Positions 51,259-60,989 of a stretch of DNA of 64,000 bases are shown here, piece by piece. The translations under genes were made by a program, and so were the position numbers. Numbering within the stretch: position 1 is the stretch's first letter; every line of letters begins with the position of its first letter. The notes beneath the pieces are model-generated. The model was not told where the DNA came from and searched no databases. It worked only from the letters and a program-made list of their open reading frames with translations. Source of the stretch: an uncultured Campylobacterota bacterium (GTDB taxonomy: Bacteria; Campylobacterota; Campylobacteria; Campylobacterales; Sulfurovaceae); assembly GCA_937141405.1 (NCBI GenBank), contig CAKZQQ010000006.1, forward strand, positions 310,001 through 374,000, read 5' to 3'.

Positions 51259-54200
51259 ATGGTTAAAAAGATGAATCAAAACAGAGAAAGTTTTTTTGAG
51301 AGCAGAAGAAATTTCCTCAAAAATAGTGCCTATACCGTAGCTGGAACAACGCTTACTCTAGGAGTTTTTAAAACTATCGTAGATACGCCTGCAAACGCTT
51401 CAAGTGAGTTTACATCTACCCCAAAAACACTCTTTTCTTATCCAAATCCAAAAGAGTGGGATAGTTATGTCGAGCTTGATGGTAATGATTGGAAAAGAGG
51501 CGGTATCGGCAGAAGAGGGATTAAGAGTGAAAAAAATCCTGAGGGTATCACGGCGACAGAATATATGCTCGTTCCTACTGCTTGTTCAAATTGTGAAGCA
51601 TCATGTGGATTGACGGCTTGGGTTGATTTGAGCTCTTACAAAAAAGGTGGTCAGCTTAAAGTAAGAAAATATATGGGAAATCCTCTGCATGCGGGAAGTA
51701 GAGGGAGAAATTGTGCCAAAGGATATGCAGCGCAATCGCAAATGTATGATCCCGATAGAATCCCATTCCCACTCAGAAGAGCTCCCGGAAGCAAAAGAGG
51801 CGATGGGAAATGGGTGCGAACTACTTGGGATGAGGCGATGAGCGAGATAGGCTCTAAAATCGCAAGTCTGCTTAAAAGTGATGATGAGGTCTCTAAGAAG
51901 ATGTTTATGTATCAAGTGGGTCGTCCAAATGAGAATGGTTTTGGTGCAAGAGTGCCACAATCTCTCGGCGTAGATGGTTGGAACTCACATACAAATATCT
52001 GTAGTGCGGGTGCTAGAGAAGGAACAATCCAGTGGACAAATGATGATAGAAATTCTCCTGATTGGGCGAATGCCGATCTTATCTTTTTGCAATCTTCTCA
52101 CGCAGCAGATGCAGGACACTATTTCCAACAAGCCGCAGGGCGAATAGCTGATGCGAGAAAAAGAGGCGCTAAGCTTGTCGTTATGGATCCTCGGATGTCA
52201 AATTCAGCCGGTATGGCTGATCTTTGGGTGCCTTGTTGGCCGGGAACCGAAGTAGCGCTTTATCTCTATCTTGCCAATAGAATTCTCAATGAAAAAGGGC
52301 TCAATGGTGACTCTTTGGTCAACCACAATTTTGTAAAAAAATGGGTCAACTGGGATAGACTGATGTCAAACAAAGAGTATCTCTCGCTCCTTGTTGAAAA
52401 GGGTTATATCAAATCAGTGCCAAAAGGTGATAGCTATGAAGATTTCATAACGATGATATCAGAGATGTATAGTCCATATACGCTTGATTTCGTGGTTAAA
52501 GAGTGTCGCATTGAGGCGAAAACAGTAGAAAAACTCTATGATATGTTTATCGATGCAGGCGCAAGGGTTGCGACCTATATTTGGAGAGCCGGTCCTATAG
52601 GACACAGAGGCGGATGGATGAACGCAAGAGCAGCATTTTTGCCGTTTGTTCTTCGAGGTGCTATGGCGGGCGATAAGGGTGGCATGGGACTTCACCATTG
52701 GCATGTAATCTCGGTTAACGGTAAAGGTGACAAGGCAACAGTTTCAGGTGTTGCGCCGGACAAAGTAGATGTTTGGAATGAGTTGGCTTGGCCACCGGAG
52801 TATCCTTTGAGTGCTTATGAGATGAGCTTTTTATTGCCGCATTTGCTCCTTGATGATGAATGGAGAGCAAAATGGAATGCCAAAGGGCTTAAAGTGCCTG
52901 AAAAGTTAGGCGTTTATGTACCACGTATCTACAATCCGGTCTGGATCAATCCTGATGGATTTAGATGGATAGAGGCACTTAAAAGAGAAGACAAGGTCGA
53001 GCTCTCTTTTAACCTCTCGCCGACATGGTCTGAGACAAATTGGTTTTGTGATTATGTATTGCCGGTGGGATTAGCAGGGGAGCGACACGATCAGCAATCA
53101 GAGGCAACACAGCCTTCTCGCTGGCTCAGCTTTAGAAATCCGGCTCTTAGGGTTGCGCTTGAAAAAATGGGATGGAAACCAAAAAATCCAGCGAGAGCAA
53201 CACTTGAAGCACATATCGAAGCAGGTCTTGGTGAGATATGGGAAGAGGTTGAGTTTTGGGCAAATATCATGGTAGATTATGTTGACCCTGACGGATCACT
53301 TGGAGTACGAGAACATTGGGCTTCTAAAGAGGATCCAAGTAGAGCAGTGACGATTGCTGAGTGGTATCAAGAGGCATTTGATAATCTGCCAAACCTCAAA
53401 GCAGCAGCAAAGATAAAATACCCTGATTCTAAGTATCCAAACTATGAGATGATGCGCGATATGGGTACTTGGCTTGAAGAGGATAATATCTATAAACCGC
53501 AAGAGAGACCACTCGAAAAAGAGGGCGATGCCTATATCGTAGAGGGCAAGAGATATGAGGCGAGTCAAGTGACCAAAGATAAATTTGGCACACTCCTTGT
53601 TGCGGATGCACATGGAGAAAAAGAGGCGATAGGTATCGAGATTGATGGAGAGATCATGGATGGCTTTCATACGCTGAGTAAAAAACTTGAGTTCTTCTCT
53701 GAATGGTTTGCACAGTGGAAATGGCCGGAGTATGCCGTGCCTATCTATCCGAAGAGCAAAGCCGAGAGAAAAGAGATGATTCATCTTGTGACACAAGTGC
53801 ATCATGATTATATGAATGGAGAGAATGAGTTTGCACTCAATACGATTTTTAGATTGCCATACAATATCCATACGCGATCGGTTAACTCAAAACATCTTAT
53901 GGAGATATCGCAAAATCACAATCCTGTATGGATACACACAAGTGATGCCGCGCGACTTGGCATCAAAAGAGGTGATTCCATAAAAGTGACGATTACTGAT
54001 ACGCTTTGTGGTTTAGAGTCGGGCTATTTTATAGCAATGGCAGTGCCGACAGAGGGTACGATGCCGGGCGTGCTTGCTTGTTCTCATCATGCAGGAAGAT
54101 GGAAGCTTAAAAATGCCATTGAGATACCCGGGTTTGAGCACAAATTAGGTGTTCTCGGACTCGGCGCTCCACTTTTTGAGATGCATATGGATGGAGAAAT

Positions 54201-54591
54201 CGGTACGATGAAACCTCTAGAGGGTATCAAAGAGGGGATGCTCAAGCGACCTGATACTTGGCAGTTTAAAGAGTACAACAAGGACCTTGACAATATCTGG
54301 TGGGATGGACTTAGTGGCTCATGGCAAAATGCAGTTGCTGCCGCACACCCCGATCCGATAGCAGGAAACCATGCTTGGCACCAAAAGGTAATTATAGAAA
54401 AAGCTAAGCAAGGAGAGGTGATAGGCGATATCTATGTCAATTATGCAAATAACATGAAAATTTATCAAGCGTGGAGAGATCAACTCACAAGACCACTTGA
54501 AGCAGGCGATACACTTAGAAGACCGGTGCACATGAAGCGTCCCGGTCCAAAGATATCTAAAAAAGGTTACAGTGTAGAGATTATAGGCTAG
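51259..54591 (+). CDS. Tat-exported molybdopterin oxidoreductase catalytic subunit
   Basis: 1110 residues, long for the family. Twin-arginine signal S-R16-R17-N-F-L-K, predicting periplasmic location. 4Fe-4S motif C109-x2-C112-x3-C116-x35-C152, then Mo-bis-MGD domains; Cys248 in NICSAG is the likely Mo ligand (Cys rather than Ser or Sec). Later 'PTWSETNWFCDYVLPVG' and a C-terminal MopB domain 'IHTSDAARLGIKRGDSIKV'. Family candidates: polysulfide/thiosulfate (PsrA/PhsA) or tetrathionate reductase (TtrA), the latter sharing B-C-A gene order and size above 1000 residues. Substrate is not settled. Good GGAG before the ATG. Confidence 0.88.
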   Translation: MVKKMNQNRESFFESRRNFLKNSAYTVAGTTLTLGVFKTIVDTPANASSEFTSTPKTLFSYPNPKEWDSYVELDGNDWKRGGIGRRGIKSEKNPEGITATEYMLVPTACSNCEASCGLTAWVDLSSYKKGGQLKVRKYMGNPLHAGSRGRNCAKGYAAQSQMYDPDRIPFPLRRAPGSKRGDGKWVRTTWDEAMSEIGSKIASLLKSDDEVSKKMFMYQVGRPNENGFGARVPQSLGVDGWNSHTNICSAGAREGTIQWTNDDRNSPDWANADLIFLQSSHAADAGHYFQQAAGRIADARKRGAKLVVMDPRMSNSAGMADLWVPCWPGTEVALYLYLANRILNEKGLNGDSLVNHNFVKKWVNWDRLMSNKEYLSLLVEKGYIKSVPKGDSYEDFITMISEMYSPYTLDFVVKECRIEAKTVEKLYDMFIDAGARVATYIWRAGPIGHRGGWMNARAAFLPFVLRGAMAGDKGGMGLHHWHVISVNGKGDKATVSGVAPDKVDVWNELAWPPEYPLSAYEMSFLLPHLLLDDEWRAKWNAKGLKVPEKLGVYVPRIYNPVWINPDGFRWIEALKREDKVELSFNLSPTWSETNWFCDYVLPVGLAGERHDQQSEATQPSRWLSFRNPALRVALEKMGWKPKNPARATLEAHIEAGLGEIWEEVEFWANIMVDYVDPDGSLGVREHWASKEDPSRAVTIAEWYQEAFDNLPNLKAAAKIKYPDSKYPNYEMMRDMGTWLEEDNIYKPQERPLEKEGDAYIVEGKRYEASQVTKDKFGTLLVADAHGEKEAIGIEIDGEIMDGFHTLSKKLEFFSEWFAQWKWPEYAVPIYPKSKAERKEMIHLVTQVHHDYMNGENEFALNTIFRLPYNIHTRSVNSKHLMEISQNHNPVWIHTSDAARLGIKRGDSIKVTITDTLCGLESGYFIAMAVPTEGTMPGVLACSHHAGRWKLKNAIEIPGFEHKLGVLGLGAPLFEMHMDGEIGTMKPLEGIKEGMLKRPDTWQFKEYNKDLDNIWWDGLSGSWQNAVAAAHPDPIAGNHAWHQKVIIEKAKQGEVIGDIYVNYANNMKIYQAWRDQLTRPLEAGDTLRRPVHMKRPGPKISKKGYSVEIIG

Positions 54592-54614
54592 AGCATGAGA
54601 ATATCTCACGCTCT
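54590..54614 (+). terminator. Intercistronic hairpin after the Mo-subunit gene
   Basis: AGAGC-a-TGAGA and TCTCA-c-GCTCT pair with one mismatch around an ATA loop, beginning within the stop codon region. A T-run follows only after about 20 bases. It probably protects the 3' end of the upstream message or attenuates the accessory genes relative to the enzyme subunits. Confidence 0.5.
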
Positions 54615-54673
54615 TAGTTGACTCTTTGTCGTTTTTTAAATACTATATCTCTAAATAAGATTGTGAGGTTCCA

Positions 54674-55309
54674 ATGAATTCCTTTAAAGAAGAAACAAAT
54701 GCTCGTCAAGCACTCTATAGCTTCATCGCAAGATTGATGTTGGTCGAAGTTGATGAGAAATTTTTAGAGAGCTTTGAGAGTGAAGCAAATCTTCTCTCTA
54801 TGTTCCCGAACTACAAAGAGTGGAGCAAAAAAAAAGAGTTCTCAAGAGCAGATTTGATCGCACAATATCTCAATGTTGATTTTACAAATCTCTTTTTGAT
54901 GCATCTTATCCCCTATGAGAGCTTCTATACGAGAGATGATCAGATGATAGAAAGTGGCGGCAATAACCCGATTATTGAGCTTTATAACTCCTATGATTTT
55001 AGAGTAGAGCTCGATAAAGCAAGGGTCATAAGCCCCGATCATATCGGTGTTGAGCTCGAGTTTATGTATATGTTGTGCAGTGCACTTCAAAAAGCACAAG
55101 AGGCTGATGATGCAGAGGGAATCGATGATATCCTAAGAGTACAAAAAGATTTTTTAGAGCAACATCTACTTCGTTGGGCACCGATGTTTCTTATCAATGT
55201 CAAAAGAGAATCAATCACACCGTTGTATCATGATGGAGCAGAGTTTGCGTTGGATTTTTTACTGAGTGATTTTGAGTATATAAATTCGAAACTCAAAAAG
55301 AGCTGTTAA
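54674..55309 (+). CDS. TorD/DmsD-family molybdoenzyme chaperone
   Basis: 211 residues, all-helical. 'ARQALYSFIARLMLVEVDEKFLESF' , 'FTNLFLMHLIPYESFYTRDDQM', 'DHIGVELEFMYMLCSALQKA', 'FLEQHLLRWAPMF' follow the TorD/DmsD pattern, including the E-x-x-Y-x-x-D and H-x-x-x-W-x-P segments. Such proteins bind Tat signals and cofactor-insertion intermediates. Obvious client: the subunit at 51259. Four bases separate it from the ferredoxin gene. Confidence 0.9.
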   Translation: MNSFKEETNARQALYSFIARLMLVEVDEKFLESFESEANLLSMFPNYKEWSKKKEFSRADLIAQYLNVDFTNLFLMHLIPYESFYTRDDQMIESGGNNPIIELYNSYDFRVELDKARVISPDHIGVELEFMYMLCSALQKAQEADDAEGIDDILRVQKDFLEQHLLRWAPMFLINVKRESITPLYHDGAEFALDFLLSDFEYINSKLKKSC

Positions 55310-55312
55310 TCT

Positions 55313-56407
55313 ATGCGATTAGAACTTGATGTAGCCAAATGCGTACGCGCAAAAAGTAAATTTTCTCTTTGTGTTTGTTGTGCTGGGGCATCGCCTGAGC
55401 ATATCAGTATAGTAGAAAATATTCCTACATTTAAAAATCAAACAGGCATCGAAGCTGCCGCTTCAGTTGGAGCTTGCCCGTGTGAGGCGCTTGGTTTGAG
55501 CGGCATTGTTTTGAGTCGATTCTTTTTTGATTTTTTGGATGCAAAGAGTGATACGCTTGTACCATCAAAAGAGCTTCCTTGCTTATCGTTATTGAGTGTC
55601 GAGCATCTCCTCTCTCTTGCATTGGCACTAGAGCAAAATCTCAAAATAAATATTGGGAGCTATAATAGGGATTCCGTTCAATTGCAACAGATTTTAAAAA
55701 GAGTTGACGAGGTCAATCAAATACTCAGTGCAGTTTCTGCTAAAAAGATAGAGGTGATTCAAGAGCACTCAGAAGATGAGAGCGAATCTGTAGACAAGGA
55801 TGAGAGTGGATCAAGAAGGGATTTTCTAACAAATCTTTCACTCAAAGGCGCACTCAAACAAAAAAAGCGTTTTGAGGAGTCCCTTGAGGCAGATGAGCTG
55901 AGTCAACACCTCTTAGAGAGTGATGATATAGCAAAACTCAAAGAGCAACATATCCCGGAAAAGAGAAAGATACTCTTTAGCGTTTTAAAATATTCTGATC
56001 TTTTTAAAAATAGTGTAGCCATCAAGAGAGAGAAGATAAGTTTCATCTCGGATAAGGTCGTAAATGATAGTTGTACAAATTGCCAAATGTGCTATAGGCT
56101 CTGTCCGAGCGGTGCACTCTCAAGCGATGGGAGGTTTTCACTAATCAATTTTGATGCTATGCTCTGCTTAAAGTGTCGTTTATGCCATGATGTGTGCGAG
56201 GTAGACGCCATAACGATGAGTCCCCATTTTGATCTTGGGGAGTTTGGGAAGCACCATCAAGAAACACTCATACGGTTTGATATAAAAAGATGTAATGAGT
56301 GCGGCAACAGTTTTACATATAGGGGTGGTGAGATGCTTTGCCCAAGGTGTAAAGTAGAAGAAGAAGAGGCTGCATCGCTTCATGAAAAAAGCGGTATTAT
56401 ATTTTAA
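55313..56407 (+). CDS. Multi-cluster ferredoxin-like protein with C-terminal zinc ribbon
   Basis: 364 residues. N-terminal Cys set C10, C20, C22, C23, C55-P-C57 resembling a split 4Fe-4S site ('CVRAKSKFSLCVCC... ACPCEA'). A long central acidic/Lys-rich linker (about 150-250). Then two canonical C-x2-C-x2-C-x3-C sites (CTNCQMCYRLCP and CLKCRLCHDVCE) and a zinc-ribbon pair (CNECG... CPRC). No signal peptide, so cytoplasmic. Found immediately after the TorD-type chaperone, it may supply electrons or assist cluster assembly for the molybdoenzyme. I do not know a characterised homologue. Confidence 0.8.
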   Translation: MRLELDVAKCVRAKSKFSLCVCCAGASPEHISIVENIPTFKNQTGIEAAASVGACPCEALGLSGIVLSRFFFDFLDAKSDTLVPSKELPCLSLLSVEHLLSLALALEQNLKINIGSYNRDSVQLQQILKRVDEVNQILSAVSAKKIEVIQEHSEDESESVDKDESGSRRDFLTNLSLKGALKQKKRFEESLEADELSQHLLESDDIAKLKEQHIPEKRKILFSVLKYSDLFKNSVAIKREKISFISDKVVNDSCTNCQMCYRLCPSGALSSDGRFSLINFDAMLCLKCRLCHDVCEVDAITMSPHFDLGEFGKHHQETLIRFDIKRCNECGNSFTYRGGEMLCPRCKVEEEEAASLHEKSGIIF

Positions 56408-56418
56408 AGGAGAGAGAC

Positions 56419-56886
56419 TTGGAGCCACACGAGATACGACCGGATACACAGCTTTGTACTATTTTGGGTTTAGCAGGACAAAACTCTTTAGAGCGAAGAA
56501 TTTTCAATAAGATACTCAAAACTGATGCGATCAATGCCACAGCCATCGCGCTCAATGTCAAAGAGGAGCATTTTGATTTTACCTTTACCAATATCGCACG
56601 ATCAAAGATAGATAAAGTCATACTCTTAGATGAGTTTAAAGAGCGGGTACGCTCTTTTTGTGATATTTTAGAGAACGGGGATGAGGCGATCGATTATTTA
56701 GAGATCAAAGCAGGCAGGATAAGTGCTTTTTCTTTGGCAGGTGATATAGAAAAACTTTTTGACAATACGGAGGTACTCGATGAGAGCACTATAAAAGCAG
56801 CAAAAATGCTGTTGCTTGCTAGCAAATGGTATGGAACAAGTATGGATATCAACCGTATCCCGACACTTTTAGGAGAAGAGCGATGA
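56419..56886 (+). CDS. Unknown protein resembling the AroE N-terminal domain
   Basis: 155 residues from a TTG preceded by AGGAG seven bases upstream. 'LCTILGLAGQNSLERRIFNKILKTDAINATAIALNVKEEHF' follows the pattern of the shikimate-dehydrogenase substrate-binding domain (I-G-x-P-x-x-H-S-x-S-P-x-x-H-N...), but with the S-x-S catalytic region changed to NSLERR and no NADP domain. It could be a stand-alone fold reused as a regulator or scaffold, or an unrelated similarity. It overlaps the next gene by four bases (ATGA). Position in the molybdoenzyme operon suggests an accessory role. Confidence 0.6.
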   Translation: MEPHEIRPDTQLCTILGLAGQNSLERRIFNKILKTDAINATAIALNVKEEHFDFTFTNIARSKIDKVILLDEFKERVRSFCDILENGDEAIDYLEIKAGRISAFSLAGDIEKLFDNTEVLDESTIKAAKMLLLASKWYGTSMDINRIPTLLGEER

Positions 56887-57326
56887 AAGATATAGACGAT
56901 TTAAAAAAAGCTTTTGAGGGTTTTGATGCCAATAAGTATTGTGCGCAAGGCACTTGTGAGAGTGAAGATGAGCTCAAGGATTATCCCTCTTTTACTGAGG
57001 CGCTCTATGCGAAGATCATGGCACCGAGTGTGAGCGGGGTCTATATATCAAGATGGGATATCAAAGATATAGCCGCAACAGCAGGTGATTCGATGGCGAT
57101 CCATCCTAGAAAGAGGATGTTTGAGCTTTTGATGAAATATGCAAGTGATAGAGACAATATGCAGCGTGTTCTAGGTGCCTTAAGAGCACATATAGAAGAT
57201 AAGATAGGGATATATGAAGAGTTTATTAGAAGAGCTCCTACGAGTAGTGCTATCTTTGAGAGTCATATCGCAAGAGCAAAGAAGACGATCGCTTTTTTAC
57301 CTAAGATTTTAGAGGAGTATTTTTAA
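56883..57326 (+). CDS. Unknown protein, last gene of the molybdoenzyme operon
   Basis: 147 residues from the ATG overlapping the previous stop; an in-frame GTG at 56826 is less likely. Begins 'KDIDDLKKAFEGFDANKYCAQGTCESEDELKDYP', with Cys in C-x4-C, then a helical region 'MAIHPRKRMFELLMKYASDRDNMQRVLGALRAHIEDKIGIYEEF'. No signal, no membrane segment. I do not recognise a family; helical content resembles molybdoenzyme or hydrogenase assembly factors. It ends four bases inside the convergent pgpA. Confidence 0.65.
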   Translation: MKDIDDLKKAFEGFDANKYCAQGTCESEDELKDYPSFTEALYAKIMAPSVSGVYISRWDIKDIAATAGDSMAIHPRKRMFELLMKYASDRDNMQRVLGALRAHIEDKIGIYEEFIRRAPTSSAIFESHIARAKKTIAFLPKILEEYF

Positions 57327-57817
57327 CCTAGCATCTTATCAAGCCCTATCAATATCACCCCGCTTAATAGTCCGGCAGCAAGTCCTGCGAGGATATCATC
57401 GCCCATAACCCCAAGTCCGCCTTGCACCTTTCTATCGATCCAGCCGATCGTTGAAGGTTTCCATATATCAAAGAGTCTAAACGTTAAAAAGCTTAAAACA
57501 AAAGAGAGCATCACCCCAAAACCATAACTCACTTCTGCTCCTATTGGGTAGGCTATGATCATAGTAAGCCACATACCTGCTACTTCATCGATGACGATCT
57601 CTTGAGCATCATGCTCCTTAACTCTGTTTTCATATCGATTGATTTCAAATATACCGACGATAGTGATAGCAAGTGTAAGTATGGCGAGGCTCTCTAAGCC
57701 TAGAAAATAGATCACGGGAAGTCCTGCAACAAGAGCAGCCAATGAACCGGCAGTTCCAGGAGCTTTTGGGCTCAGACCGGCGCCGAAAAAAGTCAAAAAA
57801 AGTTTTTGTAAGTCCAT
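57323..57817 (-). CDS. pgpA: Phosphatidylglycerophosphatase A
   Basis: About 164 residues from the inner ATG at 57817 (MDLQKLFLTFFGAGLSPKAPGT), which is the usual PgpA start; the open frame extends 13 codons upstream. 'GLSPKAPGTAGSLAAL', 'EIVIDEVAGMWLTMI' and 'FRLFDIWKPSTIGWIDRKVQGGLGVMGDDILAGLAAG' are PgpA motifs. It removes phosphate from phosphatidylglycerophosphate to give phosphatidylglycerol. Start of a conserved Campylobacterota block with the next three genes. Confidence 0.9.
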   Translation of the reverse strand: MDLQKLFLTFFGAGLSPKAPGTAGSLAALVAGLPVIYFLGLESLAILTLAITIVGIFEINRYENRVKEHDAQEIVIDEVAGMWLTMIIAYPIGAEVSYGFGVMLSFVLSFLTFRLFDIWKPSTIGWIDRKVQGGLGVMGDDILAGLAAGLLSGVILIGLDKMLG

Positions 57818-57824
57818 GTTATTC

Positions 57825-59015
57825 CTATTTGAGTGATGTTGTTTGATAGAGCTCAATCAGTTTGATATAGAACTCCTCATCGCTATGATCTTCGAGCAGC
57901 CCACTACTTGGCATAAGCGAATAGTAGATCTCTTGGATATTTTTAAGTCTATTTGGAAAGAGTGCTGCTAGTATCGATGCGCTGATCTCTTTTCTTACCA
58001 AAATGGTTGGAGGGATGAGTCCTGATTGGATAAGCTTCATGATTGAATTTGAGTTGTAGTGTATGTGATGATGCCTCCCGTGTGGGCAGGTTGAATAGCT
58101 CACAAGCGTTTTACACACCTCGCAATAGACATACTCGTCAATCGTCGTGATATCAAGCCCTATATCTTTGCACTGATTGAAGATCGTATGGATCTCATTG
58201 TGATCATAGTAGAGTCCAAGCCCTCCATGATTTGTCCCTACTACAAGCTCATTACAACCATAATTTTTTACTAAAAGTGCATCAAGAATAAGCTCATTAT
58301 ACCCGGCAAATACATAGGTGTTTTCAAAAGGGACAATCGCAACTTTATTTGCAGGCAAGAAACGCTCAACATAGAGTTTGAGTGCATCATATCGTATATT
58401 AAAAGAGAGCCCCTCTTCGGTAAAAGGTTTTCGCAAGAAGAGAACGACGATATCTGACCTGCTCAGTGTATCTCGTATGACTCTCTCGTGTGATCGATTG
58501 AGAGGATTTGCTGCAAGCATCAATCCGGTGACTTTCTTTGCGTCATTTTTTTCAATCATCTCTCTTAACATTGAGATACTCTCATCAATTGGCGCATATT
58601 TTACATGATATTCACCACTCACAGCCAAAGAGCCGAGTCTTGTTATTGTATTTTTTACACCGGGATGCCCCATATCTGTTGTGCCATAAATGTTTTGAAC
58701 TCGCTCTAAAGGATCAATCTCAAATACTTCCCCCACAATAAGCTCTCCGACCTTTTCTTTGTCGTTAATAAGATCAACAATCTCCCCGTTTTTAAGTGAG
58801 CGTATCACCTCTTGATTTCTTTTGCCGCTAGGCGCAAGCACAAAAGAGAAAGGGAAAGGCACACCTTTATAATACTTTGTCTCATTTACTTTTTTTGAGG
58901 TCTTGGAGTCCATAAGTCCATCAACAGGAGATATCAGCCCTGCTTTTACAAGTGCCAAGGACGAGAGCGCTTCGGTATCGATATAGATAGATTTATTTTT
59001 TCTTGTAGAGACCAT
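57825..59015 (-). CDS. ATP-sulfurylase-family protein with altered catalytic motifs
   Basis: 396 residues. PUA-like N-domain (YYKGVPFPFSFVLAPSG) and sulfurylase catalytic domain are recognisable, but the usual RNP-x-HRAH motif reads A169-N-P-L-N173-R-S-H176, losing the Arg and first His, and the GRDHAG motif reads G260-T-N-H-G-G. A zinc site typical of Thermus/archaeal sulfurylases remains (C298-x2-C301-x8-C310 plus His). So sulfate activation is doubtful. As I recall, C. jejuni has a homologue (Cj1609) in the same place. It may bind ATP/adenylate or act as a regulator. Overlaps the regulator gene. Confidence 0.8.
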   Translation of the reverse strand: MVSTRKNKSIYIDTEALSSLALVKAGLISPVDGLMDSKTSKKVNETKYYKGVPFPFSFVLAPSGKRNQEVIRSLKNGEIVDLINDKEKVGELIVGEVFEIDPLERVQNIYGTTDMGHPGVKNTITRLGSLAVSGEYHVKYAPIDESISMLREMIEKNDAKKVTGLMLAANPLNRSHERVIRDTLSRSDIVVLFLRKPFTEEGLSFNIRYDALKLYVERFLPANKVAIVPFENTYVFAGYNELILDALLVKNYGCNELVVGTNHGGLGLYYDHNEIHTIFNQCKDIGLDITTIDEYVYCEVCKTLVSYSTCPHGRHHHIHYNSNSIMKLIQSGLIPPTILVRKEISASILAALFPNRLKNIQEIYYSLMPSSGLLEDHSDEEFYIKLIELYQTTSLK

Positions 59016-59874
59016 ACTTCTTCCTTTTTTCCCATAAGCTTTTTCTAGAAATTCCTAATTTTTTAGAGAGTTCCGTGTCGGGAAATTGATGCTGAAAAGT
59101 ATTGATGATAAATTTGACATAATCATCGATAGTCAATACCTCATTTTGATGATAGAGCTTATCATCACTCTCTAATGTGACGGTTTCATAATCACTCTCT
59201 ATGGCACTGTTTGTTGCTATGATGAACTTGTATGGCTTGAGAAGCTCCAAAACTTCATCTTGATCTTTTTTCTTGAGCCTATCAAAGTCACTAAAATAGA
59301 GGAGCGAACTCGCTGTCTGTTTTGTTATGGCATCCTTATACCCCTTCTCTTTAGCAGAGAGCATCGTGAGCGAGAGTTTATTTTTATAGGCATAATCAAA
59401 GACCATTTTATCAGCAAGTCTTAAATAGTTGGTGATGATAATGCACGGGGTTTTTAGCTTACTGATGTCATAGTCATATTCGATATTTGAGAAGATATTT
59501 TGGATATAGTCTTGGCAGAGGAGATTCTCTTTTTTGAGTGCTTGAAACTCTCTAAAGTGCTCGATTTTTCTTAGTAGTTCCTCTATCATAAAAGGCTTGA
59601 CGATGTAGTCTTTTGCCCCTAGTTTGATGGGTTCGCTGACGGTGTCATTGTTGATATAGTTGACCATCAAGATGATAATCTTATCTTTATGTTTTTCGAT
59701 AAGCGAGTTTATCGATTGCCCTTGCAGATTTGCAGAGAGCAGATAGACATCAGCCTCACGTTCATTTGCTTCTTTGACGGAGCTAAAAAGCTCAACTTCA
59801 AAGTTTTTCTCCATGAGTTTAGCAGCGATACTTTGCGCTAAATAGACCTCATTTTCTATGATTACTATCTTCAT
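58993..59874 (-). CDS. Atypical orphan response regulator, HP1021/CemR-like
   Basis: 293 residues. The receiver has Ser47 (VYLLSANL) in place of the phosphoacceptor Asp, as in H. pylori HP1021, and keeps Lys in 'DYIVKPFMIEELLRK'. A central region follows, then a Fis-type HTH (LSKKLGISRKSLWEKRKKYGL). HP1021 and its C. jejuni homologue (Cj1608, CemR) are known as non-phosphorylated, redox-linked regulators of replication and energy metabolism. This gene also sits beside ispDF, as HP1021 does. Targets here unknown. Confidence 0.88.
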   Translation of the reverse strand: MKIVIIENEVYLAQSIAAKLMEKNFEVELFSSVKEANEREADVYLLSANLQGQSINSLIEKHKDKIIILMVNYINNDTVSEPIKLGAKDYIVKPFMIEELLRKIEHFREFQALKKENLLCQDYIQNIFSNIEYDYDISKLKTPCIIITNYLRLADKMVFDYAYKNKLSLTMLSAKEKGYKDAITKQTASSLLYFSDFDRLKKKDQDEVLELLKPYKFIIATNSAIESDYETVTLESDDKLYHQNEVLTIDDYVKFIINTFQHQFPDTELSKKLGISRKSLWEKRKKYGLYKKK

Positions 59875-60989
59875 AAACTACCCCAATCTCTATAGGAAAT
59901 ATTGGCTATCGCGTGGACGCTTATCCCTTCACATCTGCCTATAAATCCCATTTTTTCCGATGTTGTTGCTTTGATGTTGATATATCTCTGCTCTAAGCCT
60001 ATAATCTCGGAGAGTTGAGCCCCAATAGCATTTTTATACTCCGATATTCTTGGTTTTTGTGCGACGATAGTGGTGTCGATATTGACAATCTCAAAACCAA
60101 AATCATGGATCATTTTTACTGCATCTCGAAGTAGCAGAGTCGAGTCTATATCTTTATATGCTGCGTCATTATCGGGAAAGAAATCCCCTATATCACCCAA
60201 ATTACTTGCACCTAAGAGTGCATCAATGATAGCATGGATAAGTACATCCCCGTCACTATGAGCTTTACAGCCGACATCGGATTGTATCTCTACGCCTCCG
60301 AGGAGGAGTTTTTTCCCCGCCTCAAATTGATGTGTATCTATGCCAAAACCCATGAAGTTTTTCTTTGCAGCTGTTTGGAGGCAATCCAATTTTTTAAGAT
60401 CATCTTTGCTTGTGAGTTTCATAGCTTTTGCCGAGCCCTCTACAAAATGTATCTTGCCACCTTGATGAGCGATAGCACTGCTCTCATCTGTAAACTCTTT
60501 CGTATCTATAAGAGATTTTTTGAGTACTTGTGTAACACTAAGCTGTGGAGTTTGTATCAATTTTACACGCTCTCTGTCGATATTTTCATTATCATAATAG
60601 ATAGTATCTATAGGAGCAATCGCAGGTACGATGCAATCTGCCTCGCCTTTTTGATCCAATATTCGCTCTATCATCTCATGATCTATGCAACATCGTGCTA
60701 CATCCGTGATCAAGACATAGGGGCTCTCGACGAGCGAAAGGGCATTTTTTAGAGACTCTTGTCTGCTTGATCCGCCTTCTATGAAAGCAAAATCGGCAAA
60801 TTTTTTCATATAGACTATCTCTTTTTTAGATCCGGTAATAATTATCTTATTAAAATTATATTTTTTGAATTGATTTGCTACGAAAAGCCACAATGGTGCA
60901 TCATCTATATACAACCACTGTTTTTTAACAGGGCTCTCAAATCGTGTTGAAGAGCCTGCTGCAAGCAAAATCAGGGTTATGTCTCTCAC
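59871..60989 (-). CDS. ispDF: Bifunctional IspD/IspF enzyme of the MEP pathway
   Basis: 372 residues: N-terminal IspD cytidylyltransferase (ILLAAGSSTRFESPVKKQWLYID) and C-terminal IspF MECDP synthase (GFGIDTHQFEAGKKLLLGGVEI... 'HSDGDVLIHAIIDALLGA' with metal ligands, 'KATTSEKMGFIGRCEGISVHAIA'). Fusion is usual in Campylobacterota. Two successive steps in isoprenoid precursor synthesis. Overlaps the regulator gene by four bases. Confidence 0.94.
   Translation of the reverse strand: MRDITLILLAAGSSTRFESPVKKQWLYIDDAPLWLFVANQFKKYNFNKIIITGSKKEIVYMKKFADFAFIEGGSSRQESLKNALSLVESPYVLITDVARCCIDHEMIERILDQKGEADCIVPAIAPIDTIYYDNENIDRERVKLIQTPQLSVTQVLKKSLIDTKEFTDESSAIAHQGGKIHFVEGSAKAMKLTSKDDLKKLDCLQTAAKKNFMGFGIDTHQFEAGKKLLLGGVEIQSDVGCKAHSDGDVLIHAIIDALLGASNLGDIGDFFPDNDAAYKDIDSTLLLRDAVKMIHDFGFEIVNIDTTIVAQKPRISEYKNAIGAQLSEIIGLEQRYINIKATTSEKMGFIGRCEGISVHAIANISYRDWGSL

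Follow-up and report, generated by a model that had tools for sequence, protein, structure and literature searches.

The gene satL of the window (the whole 64,000-nucleotide stretch of DNA analyzed here) encodes a divergent member of the ATP sulfurylase family that, as judged from its sequence, is almost certainly not a sulfate adenylyltransferase. Comparison with relatives points to a distinct ATP sulfurylase subfamily (SatL), vertically inherited from an early ancestor, in which the pocket has lost its sulfate side and the arginine that binds pyrophosphate (PPi) but still conserves its ribose-contact/HxxH side. As a working model, we consider SatL most likely to be a nucleotide-binding protein whose acceptor side has changed and which carries a zinc/histidine lid.

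Table 1. Features of satL and its neighbors, in window coordinates. Residue numbers are those of the window SatL.
Feature	Position	Strand	Basis
satL, divergent ATP-sulfurylase-family protein, 396 aa	57825..59015	-	ORF, translation, Pfam PF01747 + PUA_2
SatL N-terminal PUA-like domain, residues 6-135	58611..59000	-	Pfam PF14306 (PUA_2), 3.8e-16
RNP/HxxH block, residues 166-178 (MLAANPLNRSHER)	58482..58520	-	alignment of 83 SatL and 6 canonical Sat
GRD block, residues 258-266 (VVGTNHGGL)	58218..58244	-	alignment of 83 SatL and 6 canonical Sat
Zinc ligands C298, C301, C310, H312 and SatL-specific GxHHH cluster, residues 298-317	58065..58124	-	alignment
SatL-specific C-terminal tail, residues 352-396, ending LYQTTSLK	57828..57962	-	gap in canonical Sat
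cemR, atypical response regulator (Cj1608/HP1021 type)	58993..59874	-	ORF, synteny
ispDF, first gene of the conserved group	59871..60989	-	ORF, synteny
pgpA	57323..57856	-	ORF, synteny

In the ORF listing of the window, satL is read from the minus strand and starts with ATG; its ends are exactly those given in an earlier note on this DNA. A profile search of its own genome found it to be the sole PF01747 gene. Its product matches the Pfam ATP-sulfurylase profile at 1.1e-48 and, among PDB profiles, 8a8d at 1e-42. The NCBIfam sat models TIGR00339 and NF003166 gave 118 and 173.7 bits, respectively, below their cut-offs of 323 and 387 bits. We also attempted to model the protein with AlphaFold from two sequences. 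Unfortunately, the model turned out to be unusable (pLDDT of 38). A PADLOC run returned nothing. In one other locus (L053:406-2247), the SatL ORF has a long N-terminal extension within an open frame of 614 aa.

PF01747 matches are present in 307 of the 397 Campylobacterota genomes, one of them below the family cut-off, and their scores fall into two groups, six at 249-281 bits and the rest at 209 bits or less. We extracted 89 different sequences, the six of the high-scoring group (canonical Sat) and 83 that are divergent (SatL), and assigned the roughly 200 matches outside this set to SatL by score; counted in this way, SatL is found in about 300 of the 397 genomes. Weak PF01747 matches in the genomes that lack it were rejected as SatL, being short, low-scoring and seemingly other nucleotidyltransferases. 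The canonical proteins (L003-L008) are about 350 aa long and carry intact QTRN[PA]xHxAH and GRDHAG motifs. In a quick tree, they form a branch separate from SatL with 100% support, and five of the six genomes that encode them encode SatL as well. The SatL part of the same tree requires the minimum possible number of changes of taxonomic family (12 of 12), and this close tracking of the families is a sign of vertical inheritance from an early ancestor. SatL is specific to Campylobacterota as far as searched; a single pattern scan beyond the phylum found L001 alone. The canonical sat of L003 adjoins cysC and a cysQ-like gene, and in L003, L004 and L006 a similar pyruvate-kinase-like gene comes after it.

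The roles of the pocket residues were taken from A. vinosum Sat, where sulfate is held by Gln199 and Arg201 (PMC3779200). In the first block, a true Sat reads Q-T-R-N-P-x-H-x-A-H whereas the window SatL reads L-A-A-N-P-L-N-R-S-H, so that leucine stands for the sulfate glutamine, alanine for the sulfate arginine and asparagine for the first histidine of HxxH. In the second, G-R-D-H-A-G has become G-T-N-H-G-G, with Arg-Asp replaced by Thr-Asn and the glycine and histidine that contact the ribose retained. The PPi-binding arginine of SGTxxR is a methionine. The changes of RNP-x-HRAH to ANP-L-NRSH and of GRDHAG to GTNHGG that the earlier note had pointed out are thus real, and the loss of the glutamine comes in addition to them.

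A more careful comparison of all 83 SatL sequences shows which of these changes belong to the family. The equivalents of Gln199 and Arg201 are Gln/Arg in none of them, the arginine position being mostly alanine, and Q/R in all six canonical proteins. The GRD aspartate (Asp297 equivalent) is likewise missing from all 83; the GRD arginine (Arg296 equivalent) persists in six and the PPi arginine (Arg365 equivalent) in seven. The ribose contacts are kept in 79 (Gly) and 76 (His) sequences, and the histidines of HxxH in 67 (first) and 80 (second). Asparagine (12) or threonine (4) replaces the first histidine in the remaining 16, which include the window's own genus, and a few sequences, e.g. L056, have both the HxxH and the GxNH motifs damaged. 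SatL as a whole has therefore lost the sulfate side, and the NRSH of the window is a lineage detail, because the first histidine is kept in 67 of the 83. Hence, the substitution of catalytic residues claimed earlier is family-wide for the sulfate Gln/Arg and the GRD Asp, but the step from HRAH to NRSH was taken only in some lineages, and most SatL still conserve the adenylate half of their pocket. When the contacts are split by role, a division chosen after the motifs had been seen, the conservation percentiles within SatL are 0.93 for HxxH and 0.89 for the ribose Gly/His, against 0.44 for the sulfate contacts, 0.31 for the alpha-phosphate contacts and 0.21 for the PPi arginine. Pooled, the 11 old Sat contacts are not significantly more conserved than average (p of 0.09).

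The top of the conservation scale is occupied by the zinc ligands (percentile of 1.00) and the GxHHH cluster (0.98), and the last quarter of the protein holds half of its 45 most conserved positions. The zinc site, which is optional in the Sat family and had been noted to remain in the window SatL, is indeed intact there and is kept as CxxC-x8-CxH in 83 of 83 sequences. The GxHHH histidines are present in 82-83 of the 83, and the canonical proteins (n = 6) show no such conservation. The conserved tail positions 372-389 fall in a gap in all six canonical sequences, and a comparison of the C-terminal tail with the PDB yielded no credible relative.

The genome of the window contains a cysQ-cysC-cysD-cysN cluster and, after it, another APS-kinase-like protein, whose N-terminus is membrane-like (L145:2434-6919; C6:57433-61918), near glycosyltransferase-like and sulfotransferase-like genes; names in this cluster other than Pfam matches are our reading of the translations. 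This arrangement suggests production of PAPS for a sulfated surface polysaccharide. CysDN, composed of the PP-loop protein CysD and the GTPase CysN, is an APS-making ATP sulfurylase of a fold unrelated to SatL. As the genome carries cysD-cysN, APS can come from CysDN, which is probably what activates sulfate there. We surveyed 40 SatL genomes without canonical Sat, counting matches over 100 bits as strong. Such a match was found to APS kinase in 13 genomes and to the CysD/CysH family in 15, and 23 genomes had none of either kind. SatL is therefore retained independently of these APS users. A search for aprA gave no match, but its controls were silent too, so that it provides no evidence.

Most loci have the order ispDF-cemR-satL-pgpA, and beyond it there is usually thiC or mrp. 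The conserved place beside a response regulator, ispDF and pgpA that the earlier note described thus holds over most of the phylum. In the window, cemR overlaps the start of satL by 23 bases and pgpA overlaps its end by 32 bases. Beyond pgpA, the opposite strand (51259-57326) encodes a molybdopterin oxidoreductase-like protein along with chaperone-like and ferredoxin-like genes.

In three genera of family f6 (Arcobacteraceae-like by our reading), satL lies away from cemR, and ispDF-cemR-pgpA has closed up without it. At its new place (L039, L074 and L078), satL is oriented divergently to a QueH-like gene and has a small lipoprotein-like gene next to it, joined by an nfo-like gene in L074 and L078. 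Clean loss of satL is seen in further f6 genera and in several genera of f2, and no remnant of the gene could be found in the interval between cemR and pgpA of G228. In Arcobacteraceae-like f6 genomes and in many Helicobacter-like genomes, cemR occurs without satL; satL without cemR was never seen among the genomes examined. Both are missing from the f5 genomes (L153-L155) and from G141, and ispDF is present in G141 and in three of the four f5 genomes tested. G387 lacks satL and ispDF, probably through an assembly gap. Given the relocation in f6, the clean losses and the genomes with cemR only, satL appears to be selected in its own right, independently of the operon, and cemR appears not to need it. 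An obligate CemR-SatL partnership was set aside on account of the cemR-only genomes and the f6 relocation, and the tie to the neighboring regulator proposed earlier is doubtful.

The claim that selection is keeping satL finds support. Compared with its relative L001, satL has a dN/dS of about 0.05, an approximate ratio since dS is saturated and the overlaps with the neighbors are included, and so low a dN relative to dS means that the gene is not in random decay. Protein identity to L001 is 86% for SatL, 78% for IspDF and 84% for both CemR and PgpA. Cj1609 of C. jejuni, annotated as a sulfate adenylyltransferase in the literature, is very probably SatL, an assignment based on synteny, as it follows Cj1607 (IspDF) and Cj1608 (the response regulator). 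By TraDIS, Cj1609 was reported to be essential in all tested strains, six of C. jejuni and four of C. coli; it is core in C. lari and C. hyointestinalis, but its essentiality is not common to them (PMC10077673). A polar effect on pgpA may underlie this essentiality. Among about ten changes in the passaged aerotolerant C. coli OR12 is an A290V substitution in a gene called sat (PMC5366326).

These findings leave little room for two conservative explanations. That SatL is a still-working sulfate adenylyltransferase with unusual residues is very improbable. It does belong to the same fold family by sequence, and genes of this kind have been annotated sat (PMC4584964, PMC4674564, PMC10092268), but the sulfate Gln/Arg and the GRD Asp are absent throughout and the PPi Arg mostly so, SatL persists in genomes that have no strong match to an APS-using enzyme, the window's own genome has CysDN, and five others have a true Sat as well. 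The doubt cast earlier on this activity is thus borne out by sequence. Least credible of all is the view that satL is a relic in decay, preserved by its location in an essential operon. The clean losses, which left the neighbors without visible damage, would fit such a relic, but the low dN/dS, an identity to L001 that exceeds that of IspDF, the survival of satL intact at another position in three f6 genera and the reported essentiality of Cj1609 all speak against it. An adenylyl-sulfate sensor, a role suggested in the earlier note, is unlikely because the sulfate-binding residues are gone.

Our preferred explanation, held tentatively, is that SatL is an old, repurposed and vertically inherited branch of ATP sulfurylase that makes no APS but transfers adenylyl groups to some other acceptor and performs a housekeeping function in Campylobacter. 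Such a protein would no longer bind sulfate or make APS. An adenine nucleotide would still be bound in the old cleft under the zinc/histidine lid, and its adenylyl group would most likely be passed not to a small oxyanion but to another kind of acceptor, such as a protein, an RNA or a cofactor. The housekeeping job in Campylobacter would be one that several lineages can dispense with. On this view, SatL may well be an adenylyltransferase that uses a different acceptor, with the reading as a non-catalytic scaffold not far behind. Replacement of either HxxH histidine by alanine kills human ATP sulfurylase (PMC11697783), and as the first of them is lost in 16 of the 83 SatL, catalysis may not be the conserved function. 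The loss of the PPi arginine likewise weighs against the preferred explanation. It is possible, though on balance doubtful, that SatL is a pseudoenzyme, i.e. a non-catalytic scaffold or a nucleotide-responsive regulator, whose lid and tail bind a partner, with CemR as one candidate, and in which any bound nucleotide just alters the conformation of the protein. The concentration of conservation in the zinc ligands, GxHHH and the last quarter is consistent with this, as is the retention of the zinc/histidine part in several lineages where HxxH and/or GxNH is broken. The invariable company of CemR and the joint absence of both proteins from f5 and G141 would fit such a partner, but the cemR-only genomes and the relocated f6 genes argue against an obligate one, and the high conservation of HxxH and the ribose contacts argues against a pseudoenzyme. 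A new metal-centered enzyme, in which GxHHH and the zinc site, possibly together with His176 and His263, form a second metal site for a new reaction in the old cleft, is rather unlikely. Almost every SatL has the triple histidine, a feature that canonical Sat does not conserve, and it is located on the segment that links the adenine and PPi sites in Sat (PMC3779200), but homology predicts coordination of zinc by CxxC...CxH only.

In summary, SatL resembles Sat-type enzymes (EC 2.7.7.4; A. vinosum Sat, T. thermophilus 1V47 and M. thermolithotrophicus 8A8D) in its PUA-like domain followed by the ATP-sulfurylase domain, in its zinc ligands and, in most members, in HxxH and the ribose Gly/His. It differs from them in the loss of the sulfate Gln/Arg and the GRD Asp and mostly of the GRD and PPi arginines, in the added GxHHH and conserved C-terminal tail, and in having no consistent genomic link to APS metabolism. 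The canonical Sat of Campylobacterota belongs to the same Pfam family, but has intact motifs and a branch of its own.

Published metabolic reconstructions have interpreted genes of this type as ATP sulfurylase. One study called a sat gene 'conspicuous' where the remainder of the pathway was missing (PMC4674564), the Sat-type enzymes of Sulfurimonas were taken as assimilatory (PMC4584964), and one from Nautilia was called dissimilatory (PMC10092268). Our analysis suggests that these genes may be SatL and, if so, the metabolic inferences drawn from them need revision. SatL could quite possibly represent an unrecognized enzyme family of most Campylobacterota, in which the ATP-sulfurylase cleft under a zinc/triple-histidine lid serves a new adenylyl-transfer or metal-dependent reaction that is essential in some species. 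For a protein of known fold family that is reported as essential in C. jejuni and C. coli, the testable question is that of its substrate.
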